This document shows, piece after piece, positions 3,643 to 9,554 of a stretch of DNA of 64,000 nucleotides (position 1 is the stretch's first letter; the number at the start of each line of letters is the position of its first letter). The stretch spans positions 62,001-126,000 of the forward strand of contig NZ_JADKYY010000006.1 in NCBI RefSeq assembly GCF_015354315.1, read 5' to 3'. The translations under genes and the position numbers were made by a program. This stretch comes from Planobacterium oryzisoli (GTDB lineage Bacteria > Bacteroidota > Bacteroidia > Flavobacteriales > Weeksellaceae). The notes below the pieces were generated by a model. It was not told where the DNA came from. It made no database searches and was given only the letters and a program-made list of their open reading frames with translations.

Positions 3643-6600
3643 CTATACCATGGGTTGCATACGGAAGCTCATGCTTTCGATAACCTTAAGGATAGCCTCG
3701 ACCGTATCCATGGAGGTCAGACACGGTACTCCATTTTCCACCGACATGCGGCGGATCTGAAAACCGTCTCTTTCGGCCTGTTTGCCTTTGGTAGTTGTAT
3801 TGACAACATACTGCACCTTCCCTTTTTGAATCAGATCGATAAGGTTTACATTCTCTTCTCCGATCTTGTATCCGATTTTTACAGGAATCCCTTTGCTTTG
3901 GAAATACTTGGCCGTGCCTTCCGTGGCCCAGATACGAAATCCTACCTGGTGGAACCGCTCGGCAAAGACCGCCGCTTCCTCCTTATGTTTGTCGGCTACA
4001 GTAAAGAGTATGGAACCGTGGGTAGGCACTTTGCGTCCTGCGGCGATAAACCCTTTATAGAGGGCTTTCTCCAGGGTGGAATCTTTACCCATCACCTCAC
4101 CGGTGGACTTCATTTCCGGACCGAGAGAGGTGTCTACCTTAGCAAGCTTGGAGAAAGAGAAGACAGGCACCTTAACATACACCCCGTCTTTGGAAGGAAC
4201 CAGTCCGCTGTGGTAGCCCATATCCTTTAGTTTCTCACCCAAAATTACCTTGGTGGCAAGATTGGCCATCGGAACTCCGGTTATTTTGGACAGAAACGGT
4301 ACGGTACGTGAGGACCGAGGGTTGACCTCGATGACGTATACCTGGTTTTCAAAGAGCACGTACTGGATATTCATCAGACCCTTCACCCCAAGACCCAGGG
4401 CCAGTCGCTGGGTGTAATCCACCAGCTGGGCCGTGCAGTGCGCGTTGATATTCTGTGGAGGATACACCGCTATGGAGTCTCCACTGTGCACGCCGGCGCG
4501 TTCGATATGTTCCATGATTCCCGGAATCACCACCGTTTCTCCGTCGCAGATGGCATCCACTTCCACTTCCTTTCCGGTCATATACTTATCTACAAGGATT
4601 GGATGCTCTGGAGAAGCCTCCACGGCATGGTCCATATAGTGGGAAAGTTCCTGCTCGTTGTAGACGATTTCCATGGCGCGTCCTCCAAGCACGTAGCTTG
4701 GGCGCACCAGTACAGGATATCCGATCTCGTTTGCTATCTCCACAGCGCCTTCCTTGGAAAAACAGGTCTTGCCAAGGGGTTGTGGTATACCTAGCTCCTG
4801 CAGTGCCTTTTCAAACTTATCGCGATTTTCAGCCCGGTCCAAATCCTCCAAGGAGGTACCCAGAATCTTGACTCCGTGTGCTGCTATTTTATCCGCTAAG
4901 TTGATGGCTGTCTGTCCACCGAACTGTACCACTACCCCTTCGGGTTTTTCCAGCTCGATAATGTTCATCACATCCTCTTCGGTAAGCGGCTCAAAGTACA
5001 ACTTATCCGATATGGAGAAATCAGTGGACACCGTCTCTGGATTGTTGTTGATGATAATAGCCTCGTATCCTAGCTGCTTGATGGCCCAAACGCTGTGCAC
5101 CGTTGCGTAGTCGAATTCCACGCCCTGCCCGATACGGATCGGTCCGGAGCCCAGGACCACCACTTTGCGGTTACTTGAAACCACACTTTCGTTTTCCTGT
5201 TCGTAGGTTCCGTAGAAGTACGGAGTGTCGCTTTCAAATTCTGCGGCGCAGGTATCGACCATCTTGTAGGTAGGCATGATACCCAATTTCTTTCTCAGTT
5301 CAAAGACTTCCCTTTGCGTAACGCCCCAGTGGTGAGCGATATTCTTGTCGGAGAAGCCCATTTTTTTGGCCGTTAAAAGAACCTCCCCGTCGTGTTTTGC
5401 CCCGGCAATCACCTTCTCATAATCGATTAGTTTCTTTAATTTCCATATGAAGAACGGGTCTATCTTGCTCCATTCTACGATCTGCTCCCAGTCGTATCCT
5501 TTTCGTAAGGCATCACCGATAATAAACAGTCGCTCGTCGTCACAGACGCGTATTCTGCGCTCTATTTCCTCTGCGGTAAGGGCCTCGGCCTGCGTGCTCT
5601 TCAGCCCCAAATGGCGGATTCCGGTTTCCAGGGAGCGAATGGCCTTCTGGATACTTTCCTCAAAGGTCCTTCCGATGGCCATAACCTCCCCAGTAGCTTT
5701 CATCTGCGTGGAGAGCCTGCGGTCGGCCGTCTCGAACTTATCAAAAGGGAACCTTGGGATCTTGGTCACTACATAATCCAGCGCCGGTTCAAAACATGCA
5801 TAGGTCTTGCCTGTTACAGGATTGAGCATCTCATCCAGAGTAAGTCCTACCGCGATCTTGGCAGCCAGCTTGGCAATAGGATAGCCCGTGGCTTTACTGG
5901 CCAGGGCCGAGGAGCGCGATACCCGAGGATTTACCTCAATGATATAGTATTTGTAGGAATGGGGATCGAGCGCAAGCTGTACATTGCATCCCCCCTCTAT
6001 TCCTAGGGCCCGTATGATCTTAAGCGATGCGTTTCGAAGCATCTGGTATTCGCGGTCGGAAAGTGTCTGTGAAGGAGCTACCACGATGCTGTCTCCCGTA
6101 TGCACGCCCACGGGATCCACATTTTCCATGTTACACACCACGATGGCATTGTCGTTGGCATCACGCATCACTTCGTATTCAATTTCCTTGAATCCTGCAA
6201 TGGAACGCTCTATTAGACACTGGGTGACGGGCGAATATTTAAGTCCAAGCTCGGTGATTTCCTTGAGCTGCGTCTCGTCGGTGGCAATTCCCCCACCGGT
6301 CCCTCCCATCGTAAAGGCGGGACGAACAATAACAGGATAGCCAATGGACTGCGCAAACTCTACAGCCCCCTCCACCGTGGTGACGATGTCGCTTTCGGGT
6401 ACCGGTTCACCCAGTTCGCGCATAAGCTCCCTAAAGAGGTCTCTGTCTTCGGCCTGGTTGATGGCCGAAAGCTTCGTACCCAGCACCTCCACTTCGCATT
6501 CCTCCAATATTCCTGATTTCTCGAGCTCAATGGCCATATTAAGACCTATCTGTCCTCCCAAGGTCGGCAGCAGTGCATCGGGACGTTCCTTTCGGATAAT

Positions 6601-6825
6601 ATGGGATACGAATTCCAGGGAAATCGGTTCAATATATACTTTGTCGGCAATCTCGACATCGGTCATGATGGTGGCTGGATTGGAATTGATCAGAATTACG
6701 CGGTAGCCTTCCTCACGAAGTGCCAGACAGGCCTGGGTACCTGCATAATCGAACTCTGCTGCCTGGCCGATGATGATCGGACCGGATCCAATGACAAGGA
6801 TGGTATTTATATCTGTTCGTTTCAT
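3643..6825 (-). CDS. carB: Carbamoyl-phosphate synthase large subunit
   Basis: Makes carbamoyl phosphate from bicarbonate, ammonia and two ATP, feeding pyrimidine and arginine synthesis. At 1060 aa it is full length. Two homologous ATP-grasp halves are visible: [20 protein letters not shown] opens the first and [16 protein letters not shown] (about residue 560) opens the second. Each half has an ATP-grasp metal-binding segment ([34 protein letters not shown]). The C-terminal 130 or so residues form the MGS-like allosteric domain that binds effectors such as UMP in the family. carA is 3 bp upstream, so the subunits are co-translated. Confidence 0.97.
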
Positions 6826-6828
6826 TCT

Positions 6829-7911
6829 TTAGTTGCTTTTAACTGGGTGCTGCTGCATTAGGGTGATAAATTCATCGAAAAGGTAGTTGGCATCTTCCGG
6901 ACCTGGACTCGCCTCAGGATGGTACTGCACAGAGAAACACGGATATTTGGTGTGTCGAAGACCCTCGTTGGTACGGTCATTAAGCGCAATGTGGGTCTGC
7001 TCCAGTCCGGTTCCTTCCAGACTCTCACTGTCCACTGCGTAGCCGTGGTTCTGAGAAGTAATCGACACGGTATTTCTCTTAAGGTCCAAAACCGGGTGGT
7101 TTCCACCACGGTGTCCGAACTTGAGCTTGAAGGTACGGGCGCCACACGCAAGGCCTATAAGCTGGTGGCCCAAACAGATTCCAAAAATAGGGACTTTCCC
7201 AAGTAGGCCCTGGATAAGCTCCTGAGCACCTTTCACGTCCTGGGGATCTCCCGGGCCATTGGAAAGCATGACGCCATCCGGCGATAAAAGCAAGAGCTCC
7301 TCAGCAGTGATATCGTGCGATACCACTGTGATATCACAATCGCGGCGTGAGAGTTCACGTATGATTCCCAGCTTGCTTCCAAAATCCACAAGCACTACTT
7401 TCAGACCTCTACCGGGAGCCGCATACGGCGTCTTGGTTGATACTTGCTCCACCTGATTGGTAGGACTTGGATTTAAGCGCATGTTCTCCAAGGCCTGCTC
7501 CTTGCTCGCATCAGCGTCCAGGATCATTCCCCGCACTACCCCTTTACTTCTAATAAGCCGGGTTAGTGCCCTAGTATCCACGCCCTGAATGCCTGCAATC
7601 CCCTTTTTGCTTAGAAGGGCATCGAGATCCATCTGGGAGCGGAAATTGGAAGGATAATCGCAGAGTTCGCGCACGATAAGTCCCTTAATGGAAGGCTGAA
7701 TACTCTCGAAATCGTCACGGTTTATTCCGTAGTTTCCTATGAGTGGATAAGTCATCGTTACGATCTGTCCACAATAGGAAGGATCGGAAAGAAGTTCCTG
7801 GTACCCTGTCATCGAAGTGTTGAACACCACTTCCCCATCGGTCGCATCCAGTGCTCCGAAGCCTTCGCCCCAAAATACCTCACCGGATTCTAAAAGTAAT
7901 TTCTTTTTCAT
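6829..7911 (-). CDS. carA: Carbamoyl-phosphate synthase small subunit (glutaminase)
   Basis: Hydrolyses glutamine and channels ammonia to CarB. At 360 aa it is normal length. The N-terminal CPSase domain contains GEVVFNTSMTGYQE. The class I glutamine amidotransferase domain has the nucleophile elbow FGICLGHQLIGLACG and the His/Glu of QYHPEASPGPEDA. The start directly follows an A-rich stretch with no Shine-Dalgarno sequence. It lies between pyrB (85 bp upstream) and carB (3 bp downstream). The pyrB-carA gap holds a terminator-like hairpin and a second hairpin near the start codon. Confidence 0.97.
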   Translation of the reverse strand: MKKKLLLESGEVFWGEGFGALDATDGEVVFNTSMTGYQELLSDPSYCGQIVTMTYPLIGNYGINRDDFESIQPSIKGLIVRELCDYPSNFRSQMDLDALLSKKGIAGIQGVDTRALTRLIRSKGVVRGMILDADASKEQALENMRLNPSPTNQVEQVSTKTPYAAPGRGLKVVLVDFGSKLGIIRELSRRDCDITVVSHDITAEELLLLSPDGVMLSNGPGDPQDVKGAQELIQGLLGKVPIFGICLGHQLIGLACGARTFKLKFGHRGGNHPVLDLKRNTVSITSQNHGYAVDSESLEGTGLEQTHIALNDRTNEGLRHTKYPCFSVQYHPEASPGPEDANYLFDEFITLMQQHPVKSN

Positions 7912-7996: not shown

Positions 7997-8896
7997 TTAA
8001 TTGATCTCTTTAAAGGAAAAACCTCTTTGCTCCAGCGCATTTTTTAAAATTGCCATTCTGGTAAACACACCGTTTTCAATCTGCTTGAAAATCCTCGAGC
8101 GCGGAGATTCTACTAGCTCCGGAGCTATTTCCACGCCCTGGTTGATGGGGCCGGGATGCATAATAATAGCGCCCGGTTTCATTTTCTTCTCCCGCTCCAG
8201 AGTGAGTCCATAGCGCTGATGGTACTCTCCAGGAGCTAGATGGAACTTCTGACGGTGGCGCTCGTGTTGGATACGCAGCATGATCAGTACGTCCACTTCA
8301 GGGATCAGATGATCAAAATTACGGTACGTACCGTTCATCATCGCTCCATGGTCAAACCAGTCCTCGGGTCCTGAGAAATGCACCTTGGCTCCCAGCCTTC
8401 GTAAGGCATCCGCATCGGAATTCGCTACCCGCGAATGCTTCACATCCCCAATAATACCCACGGTCAGTCCCTGAAAACTTCCAAATTCCTGCTTTATGGT
8501 CATAAGGTCCAAGAGTCCCTGGCTAGGATGGTGTCCGGTACCGTCTCCTGCATTAATTATAGAGATATCCAGGTCCTTGAGTTGGTTATAATAACGGTCG
8601 TCAGGATGACGAATTACCAAAAGATCCAGACCTAGTGCCTTTAAGGTCTTGACGGTATCGAGAAGTGTCTCCCCTTTATTCAGGGAGCTGGTCTGTATAT
8701 TGAATGGAACAACCTGTAGTCCCAGACGTCTTTCGGCCATATCGAAGCTCACGATGGTACGCGTGCTGCTTTCGAAAAATAAATTGGACACGTAGATAGG
8801 CTGTGTGGCCTGTACTGCTTTTCCATTGGCAAAGTCAATACTGTCTGCGAGAATGCGTTCAATGAGTTCTTTGCTTAGACGGGAAAGTTTAATCAT
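7997..8896 (-). CDS. pyrB: Aspartate carbamoyltransferase catalytic subunit
   Basis: Condenses carbamoyl phosphate and aspartate in the committed step of pyrimidine synthesis. The 299 aa protein has the carbamoyl-phosphate loop FFESSTRTIVSFDMAERRLG at about residues 47-66, the HPSQGLLDLMT region, and HPGPINQGVEI near the C-terminus. No pyrI regulatory subunit is adjacent, so if the operon is uridine-nucleotide responsive the control could lie in the unusual leader (8929-9044), which contains a short reading frame and a terminator. First gene of pyrB-carA-carB. Confidence 0.96.
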   Translation of the reverse strand: MIKLSRLSKELIERILADSIDFANGKAVQATQPIYVSNLFFESSTRTIVSFDMAERRLGLQVVPFNIQTSSLNKGETLLDTVKTLKALGLDLLVIRHPDDRYYNQLKDLDISIINAGDGTGHHPSQGLLDLMTIKQEFGSFQGLTVGIIGDVKHSRVANSDADALRRLGAKVHFSGPEDWFDHGAMMNGTYRNFDHLIPEVDVLIMLRIQHERHRQKFHLAPGEYHQRYGLTLEREKKMKPGAIIMHPGPINQGVEIAPELVESPRSRIFKQIENGVFTRMAILKNALEQRGFSFKEIN

Positions 8897-8928: not shown

Positions 8929-8957
8929 AAAAAAAACGAAGCCAAAAAGACTTCGTT
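8929..8957 (-). terminator. Attenuator terminator in the pyrB leader
   Basis: On the minus strand a 9-bp stem (8949-8957 with 8935-8943, one G-U pair) carries a five-U loop and is followed directly by a run of T (8929-8936). It lies 33 bases before the pyrB ATG and downstream of the predicted promoter, so it would stop transcripts before pyrB unless prevented from folding. Confidence 0.85.
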
Positions 8958-9030
8958 AATGATAAATATTATAGGAACGGTCGGTCTTAGAGCCGAACCA
9001 GTATACTTCAAAATGCACCATTTCCTTCAT
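8956..9030 (-). CDS. Putative pyrB leader peptide, 24 codons
   Basis: A 24-codon frame runs from ATG at 9030 to TAA at 8958-8956. The stop sits on the first bases of the terminator stem. The peptide is rich in aromatic residues (VHFEVYWFG, then SYNIYH). Within it, GGTTCGG and CCGACC can form a hairpin around 8978-8999, followed by a T-rich stretch (8961-8976) that could pause RNA polymerase. This matches the logic of the E. coli pyrBI attenuator (pause hairpin, U-rich pause, ribosome reaching the terminator), but the peptide itself is not one I recognise. The -7 element ends 6 bases before the ATG, so the message would be nearly leaderless. Translation is an inference. Confidence 0.5.
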   Translation of the reverse strand: MKEMVHFEVYWFGSKTDRSYNIYH

Positions 9031-9036
9031 TGGGTG

Positions 9037-9044
9037 CAAAGATA
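9037..9044 (-). promoter_or_regulatory. -7 element of the pyrB-carA-carB promoter
   Basis: TATCTTTG on the minus strand is a perfect TAnnTTTG match. It puts the transcription start at about 9032, just before the leader ATG at 9030. I see no canonical TTG -33 element at the usual spacing. Confidence 0.65.
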
Positions 9045-9140: not shown

Positions 9141-9554
9141 ATGAGTCCCAAATGTCCGCGATGCAGCGCCACGGAGGTGGTAAAGAACGGAAAGGTTCAT
9201 CTGCGCCAGCGCTATCTGTGCAAAGATTGCCGCTACCACTTCACCGTAAGCAAACTCGGCAAACAAATCGACCCCTACTATATGACTAAAGCCTTACAAT
9301 TGTACCTTGAGGGACTCTCCTTACGGGATATCGAAAAAATAGTGGGCATTTCCCATGTCACCATTAGTAGTTGGGTAAAAAAACACAATATTCCACGACT
9401 CTTTAAAGAGAAAGTCCACACTTCCTACAGGGTTCTCAGGCACCAGGAGCTCCTTGAGTATCTAGGCGAGAAGCAAAACCTTAAAAACCGAGGTATTATT
9501 GTCTCCGAGCTGGGCGAGCGGTATATACTAATTACGTGGGAGCACCCTATATAA
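9141..9554 (+). CDS. InsA-like zinc-ribbon/HTH protein (domesticated IS1-type)
   Basis: 137 aa. Residues 1-35 form a zinc ribbon of the IS1 InsA type: CPRC near the start, then CKDC in LCKDCRYHFTV. A homeodomain-like HTH follows at about 45-90 (LEGLSLRDIEKIVGISHVTI). The last 40 residues (LGEKQNLKNRGIIVSELGER) are not part of IS1 InsA. There is no DDE catalytic domain, no InsB frame downstream and no terminal inverted repeats, so it does not look like a mobile element. I infer a DNA-binding regulator derived from a transposase. It is divergent from the pyr operon and preceded by repeats that could be its operator. Confidence 0.7.
   Translation: MSPKCPRCSATEVVKNGKVHLRQRYLCKDCRYHFTVSKLGKQIDPYYMTKALQLYLEGLSLRDIEKIVGISHVTISSWVKKHNIPRLFKEKVHTSYRVLRHQELLEYLGEKQNLKNRGIIVSELGERYILITWEHPI

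Follow-up and report, generated by a model that had tools for sequence, protein, structure and literature searches.

A predicted translation-coupled attenuator upstream of pyrB in the family Weeksellaceae

We found a leader upstream of the pyrB-carAB operon of Planobacterium oryzisoli that probably (at roughly 80%) acts as a translation-coupled attenuator, setting the expression of pyrB-carAB by the supply of UTP and working like the pyrBI attenuator of E. coli. Judging from the upstream regions of relatives, this attenuator-like leader is family-wide in Weeksellaceae, occurring in nearly every examined member.

In the proposed mechanism, a ribosome could load on the leader AUG immediately when the 5′ end of the RNA emerges, and RNA polymerase would pause past a small hairpin, within a U-rich tract. 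At low UTP, the polymerase would dwell in this tract while the ribosome closes up. A ribosome at the leader stop codon would then cover the 5′ arm of the terminator, which would lead to readthrough into pyrB. With ample UTP, the polymerase would outrun the ribosome, the terminator would fold and transcription would end. The start site, the actual translation of the leader, the pausing and the role of UTP as the signal are steps that we infer.

Layout and conservation of the leader

The leader lies in a window of 64,000 nucleotides (contig NZ_JADKYY010000006.1, positions 62,001 to 126,000), and its parts and the operon occupy the minus strand as follows.

9037–9044, minus strand: −7 promoter box TATCTTTG, from the sequence (Bacteroidota consensus TAnnTTTG)
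9030–9034, minus strand: predicted transcription start, at about 9032 and 2 nt 5′ of the AUG, inferred from the geometry of the −7 box and the fixed gap
8956–9030, minus strand: leader frame of 24 codons, MKEMVHFEVYWFGSKTDRSYNIYH, plus TAA, from the sequence and the open frame in relatives
8979–8999, minus strand: putative pause hairpin GGTTCGG-CTCTAAG-ACCGACC, from folding and a conserved, covarying register
8958–8977, minus strand: U-rich tract GTTCCTATAATATTTATCATT between pause hairpin and terminator, from the share of T across 45 cluster representatives
8929–8957, minus strand: intrinsic terminator, a stem-loop at 8957–8935 with a T-run at 8934–8929, from sequence, folding and covariation
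7997–8896, minus strand: pyrB, aspartate carbamoyltransferase catalytic chain, from Pfam OTCace_N and OTCace
6829–7911, minus strand: carA, the operon gene after pyrB
3643–6825, minus strand: carB, the third gene of the operon

Six bases (CACCCA) separate the −7 box from the ATG at 9030, and the TAA of the leader occupies 8958–8956. The pause hairpin (8999–8979) falls within the leader frame and folds with −7.3 kcal/mol. The terminator stem-loop, AACGAAGTC-TTTTT-GGCTTCGTT at 8957–8935, folds with −10.8 kcal/mol, starts inside the leader stop codon and is followed by six T, to 8929. The initial annotation had named a −7 box, a 24-codon frame, a hairpin, a T-rich stretch and a terminator on the stop codon, and all of these were found in this order. 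Taken alone, the fold of the window leader is modestly better than chance (z −1.8). What places the feature above chance is comparative evidence, namely the order of parts, the open frame, covariation and a covariance model, rather than the fold of a single sequence.

A search for pyrB in relatives gave 148 oriented upstream regions, 123 of them distinct. We parsed 122 of these, 121 automatically and one (L131) by eye, in which the leader proved normal; the remaining region (L029), from a divergent genus, was handled separately. To pick the leader ATG, we went by how far it lies from the box and the terminator and disregarded the reading frame. All 122 regions have the identical order of parts upstream of pyrB, and the carriers include Chryseobacterium, Kaistella, Elizabethkingia, Cloacibacterium, Riemerella, Bergeyella, Epilithonimonas and Halpernia. 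The TAnnTTTG box is present in 121 of the 121 automatically parsed leaders, at a distance from the ATG of 6 nt in 113, 5 nt in seven and 7 nt in one. These comparisons show the promoter box, the open frame, the hairpin, the U-rich tract and the terminator, as well as their geometry and the constraints on them.

A covariance model of the whole element has a match directly upstream of pyrB in 28 of 29 pyrB-bearing genomes of the family, with E-values of 0.0044 or better. The remaining matches start at an E-value of 0.014 and none is at pyrB; nothing else scores below 0.01. Neither the other families nor the Weeksellaceae genera without pyrB gave a comparable match. A PyrB match is absent in seven genera of the family (G008, G010, G019, G022, G028, G029 and G031), several of which are 99% complete. 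These genera possibly lost pyrimidine synthesis or use another enzyme.

The gene carA adjoins pyrB in 96 of 102 Weeksellaceae loci. Divergent from pyrB in the window, at 9141–9554 on the plus strand, is a gene for a protein of 137 amino acids with an InsA-type zinc ribbon (PF03811) and a helix-turn-helix. At 40 of 148 loci of the family, a divergently oriented copy with 51–58% identity is found upstream of pyrB. The product looks like a domesticated DNA-binding protein of the IS1 type.

The AUG of the leader is predicted to lie almost at the start of transcription. In Flavobacterium psychrophilum, the −7 box is at −12 to −5, and 5.5% of mRNAs are leaderless (PMC9723704). By analogy with this geometry, a box 6 nt from the ATG predicts a 5′ UTR of about 2 nt. 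For the other genes in the 64-kb window that have a box at most 80 nt from the first ATG, the gap is 13–43 nt in 14 of 15 cases. A leaderless start is not in itself new, since in trpL of Sinorhizobium meliloti the mRNA begins with the AUG of the attenuator leader peptide (PMC7298713). Apart from this shared trait, trpL belongs to an unrelated gene and lineage, and differs in sensing tryptophan through codons and an antiterminator.

RNA structure and predicted translation of the leader

We tested covariation in an alignment of 36 diverse leaders, using a named structure of two helices. In total, 86% of cells are paired, and 11 of 15 pairs have two-sided changes, in 32 cells altogether. In 500 shuffles, no covariation measure came out as high. 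Slid versions of the structure have 21–54% of cells paired, a comparison in which the tested structure has an advantage because it was drawn from one of the aligned sequences. The terminator helix is paired in 100% of cells, with two-sided changes in five of nine pairs. Covariation of both hairpins, put forward as a check in the initial annotation, is therefore present.

An ungapped test, in which leaders are lined up at the ATG, avoids the choice of an alignment. Here, pairing over six pairs reaches 68% in the register i+j=83 and 24–52% in every other register. In the five inner pairs of register 83, 307 of 410 cells are paired, as against 246 (sd 5.9) in shuffles. Local folding gave a z of −2.0 for the region of the pause hairpin and 0.0 for the leader start, which served as control. 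A search for the best hairpin in single leaders against plain shuffles gave a weak signal (40 of 90 at p≤0.1), and some leaders have a weak pause hairpin. By analogy, the hairpin may have a role in pausing.

The 3′ end of this hairpin is a median of 22 nt upstream of the terminator. In 45 cluster representatives, T makes up 68% of the 14 nt directly before the terminator stem, A 25% and C+G 7%. By comparison, the 35 nt that follow the ATG contain 30% T. Because the tract also contains this much A, we call UTP, rather than the general NTP supply, the presumed signal. The tract falls in frame 0 of the leader in 18 representatives, in frame 1 in 11 and in frame 2 in 15, so that its nucleotides are conserved rather than any codons.

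With stop codons counted up to 15 nt before the terminator stem, none of the 91 distinct leaders is interrupted in the leader frame, and the two shifted frames are open in three and 22. In every leader, the terminator abuts the frame or falls within it. Among the 45 representatives, the stop codon overlaps the stem in 25 and precedes it by at most 13 nt in eight; in the other 12, the frame continues into the stem or past it. Termination in E. coli is suppressed by a ribosome that occupies a stop codon within a few nucleotides of the stem, and it recovers fully beyond about 27 nt (PMC4824070). The distances in these leaders are within the range in which the E. coli ribosome hinders a terminator (PMC4824070).

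The initial annotation had suggested looking for coding conservation of the 24-codon frame. The frame itself is retained, but its amino acids vary: pN/pS is 1.17, indicating no conserved codons or peptide, and even the two members of the window genus have unrelated leader peptides. Synonymous changes are not in excess in the frame, so that the coding case comes from stop avoidance alone. In a Pfam scan of six leader peptides, five had no match and one had a chance match to an unrelated family. Since Pfam presumably includes the enterobacterial pyrBI leader family, this agrees with the earlier remark that the peptide is unrelated to the enterobacterial one. Given that the amino acids are free to vary and that the U-rich tract occurs in all three frames, translation seems to matter and the peptide does not. 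What selection keeps would then be the act of translation and not the sequence of the peptide.

PyrR, the origin of pyrB and alternative explanations

No full match to pyrR was found in 36 Weeksellaceae genomes; there was a single fragment with an E-value of 4.5e-4. In other families of the same order, pyrR adjoins pyrB in 17 of 17 pyrB-bearing genomes. No pyrI was found in 59 genomes of the family and of relatives outside it, and control genomes were positive. The initial annotation had noted no pyrR or pyrI in this DNA, and neither was found across the whole genome. Weeksellaceae PyrB groups with that of Bacillaceae, not with that of other Flavobacteriales (tree support 100/100). It follows from this grouping that a transferred pyrB seems to have displaced the pyrR-pyrB pair, and a horizontal replacement of pyrB in Weeksellaceae is likely. 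The leader apparently stands in for PyrR control in this family.

The arrangement differs in one genus of the family. In L029, L203 and L205–L210, we found a long leader of 139–159 nt, for which we chose a UUG start. Upstream of pyrB, its frame continues without a stop across an unrelated terminator (AACATCTTA/TAAGATGTT), and the other frames have 2–6 stops. The start lies about 39–68 nt past the nearest −7 box. No comparable leader was found at the pyrB locus of L204, which belongs to the same genus. The genus stands apart from the remaining family in the tree, with weak support. From these sequences, the long leader would seem to follow the same logic with different parts. We offer tentatively, as a scenario with somewhat less than even odds, that pyrBI-type attenuation in Weeksellaceae originated separately from that of enterobacteria, after a Bacillaceae-like pyrB had replaced the ancestral pyrR-pyrB, and on a leaderless transcript that would receive a ribosome directly at its 5′ end. 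Under this scenario, two constructions would have arisen within the family, one being the short leaderless form and the other the long, UUG-started form with an unrelated terminator.

Amino-acid attenuation, peptide arrest and PyrR control each conflict with a tested feature. In an attenuator of the trp/his type, the ribosome would stall at specific codons and thereby choose between antiterminator and terminator. A short frame upstream of a terminator fits such a mechanism, carAB also feeds arginine synthesis, and leader-peptide attenuators were reported upstream of amino-acid operons in F. psychrophilum (PMC9723704). However, the leaders share no run of regulatory codons (Arg-Arg occurs in one of 45 and Asp-Asp in 10 of 45), the U-rich tract is not tied to one frame, and no antiterminator pairing with the 5′ arm of the terminator was found (mean z 0.02, with one of 45 leaders below −2), so that we regard this explanation as very unlikely. 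The chances are slimmer still for nascent-peptide arrest of the tnaC/erm type, in which the sequence of the peptide makes the ribosome stall in response to a ligand. Similar final residues do occur inside some genera (NIY, DIY), but this shared ending stems from the nucleotide tract that is present in three frames, and both the pN/pS of the frame and the unrelated peptides within the window genus speak against a conserved peptide.

Attenuation by PyrR, or by another protein or metabolite that binds the RNA, would work without translation. PyrR attenuation is known in Bacillaceae, to whose PyrB that of the family is nearest, and PyrR is the usual neighbour of pyrB in related families. Against this, Weeksellaceae lack pyrR, Rfam scans of the window and five relatives gave no match at the leader, the PyrR element included, and the avoidance of stops in one frame only would be left unexplained; we see little chance that this is the mechanism. 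It is also conceivable, if improbable, that the leader senses coupling with no nucleotide specificity, such that readthrough tracks the supply of ribosomes or the general rate of elongation, with the U-rich tract serving only for pausing; of the alternatives, we give this one the best chance. Every part needed for coupling is present, and the tract contains A besides U. On the other hand, the element is confined to pyrB-carAB, stands in place of a regulator that responds to uracil nucleotides, and has a tract almost without C and G.

Comparison with known systems and significance

The layout follows the scheme of E. coli pyrBI, as the initial annotation had proposed, with an open frame, covarying stems and a terminator that abuts the frame or lies within it. 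In the pyrBI leader (pyrL) of E. coli and Salmonella, too, a promoter is followed by a frame that reaches into or through an intrinsic terminator, with pyrB downstream, and a U-rich pause region is directly before the terminator, with no antiterminator. The E. coli leader has 44 codons and runs through the terminator stem. By contrast, the Weeksellaceae peptide is unrelated, has about 24 codons and mostly ends on the stem, and its AUG is at the predicted 5′ end. The operon also differs in lacking pyrI, in continuing into carAB and in having a Bacteroidota promoter. The UUU that serves reiterative transcription in E. coli pyrBI does not occur at the transcript start predicted for Weeksellaceae. 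A further difference is the covarying pause hairpin, given that the pause in E. coli pyrL was reported not to depend on, or be stabilised by, a hairpin (PMC9291695). The Weeksellaceae leader would work like pyrBI, and by its sequence appears to stand outside the enterobacterial leader family.

PyrR attenuation, as found in Bacillus and in other Flavobacteriales, resembles the Weeksellaceae system in that termination versus readthrough in the leader controls pyrB. It differs in that neither a pyrR gene nor a PyrR-binding RNA was found in Weeksellaceae, and in that a translated frame is apparently needed there. We saw no similar leader in Bacteroidales pyrBI loci that were read by eye. A search of open-licence papers found no described pyrBI-type attenuator in Bacteroidota, in line with the earlier statement that no such case was known.

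If our main interpretation, a pyrBI-type attenuator, is true, this leader would be the first one described in Bacteroidota, as far as the open-licence literature shows. Its conservation spans a family that includes Chryseobacterium, Elizabethkingia and Riemerella. One regulatory logic would have been reached from unrelated parts, and the exchange of regulators, with PyrR going out and the leader coming in, can be placed on the tree. To our knowledge, transcription-translation coupling has been little tested in Bacteroidota, and these bacteria, as far as we know, lack Shine-Dalgarno sequences. The leader would report directly on coupling in this phylum, and its leaderless start would probe how fast ribosomes load on a nascent 5′ end.
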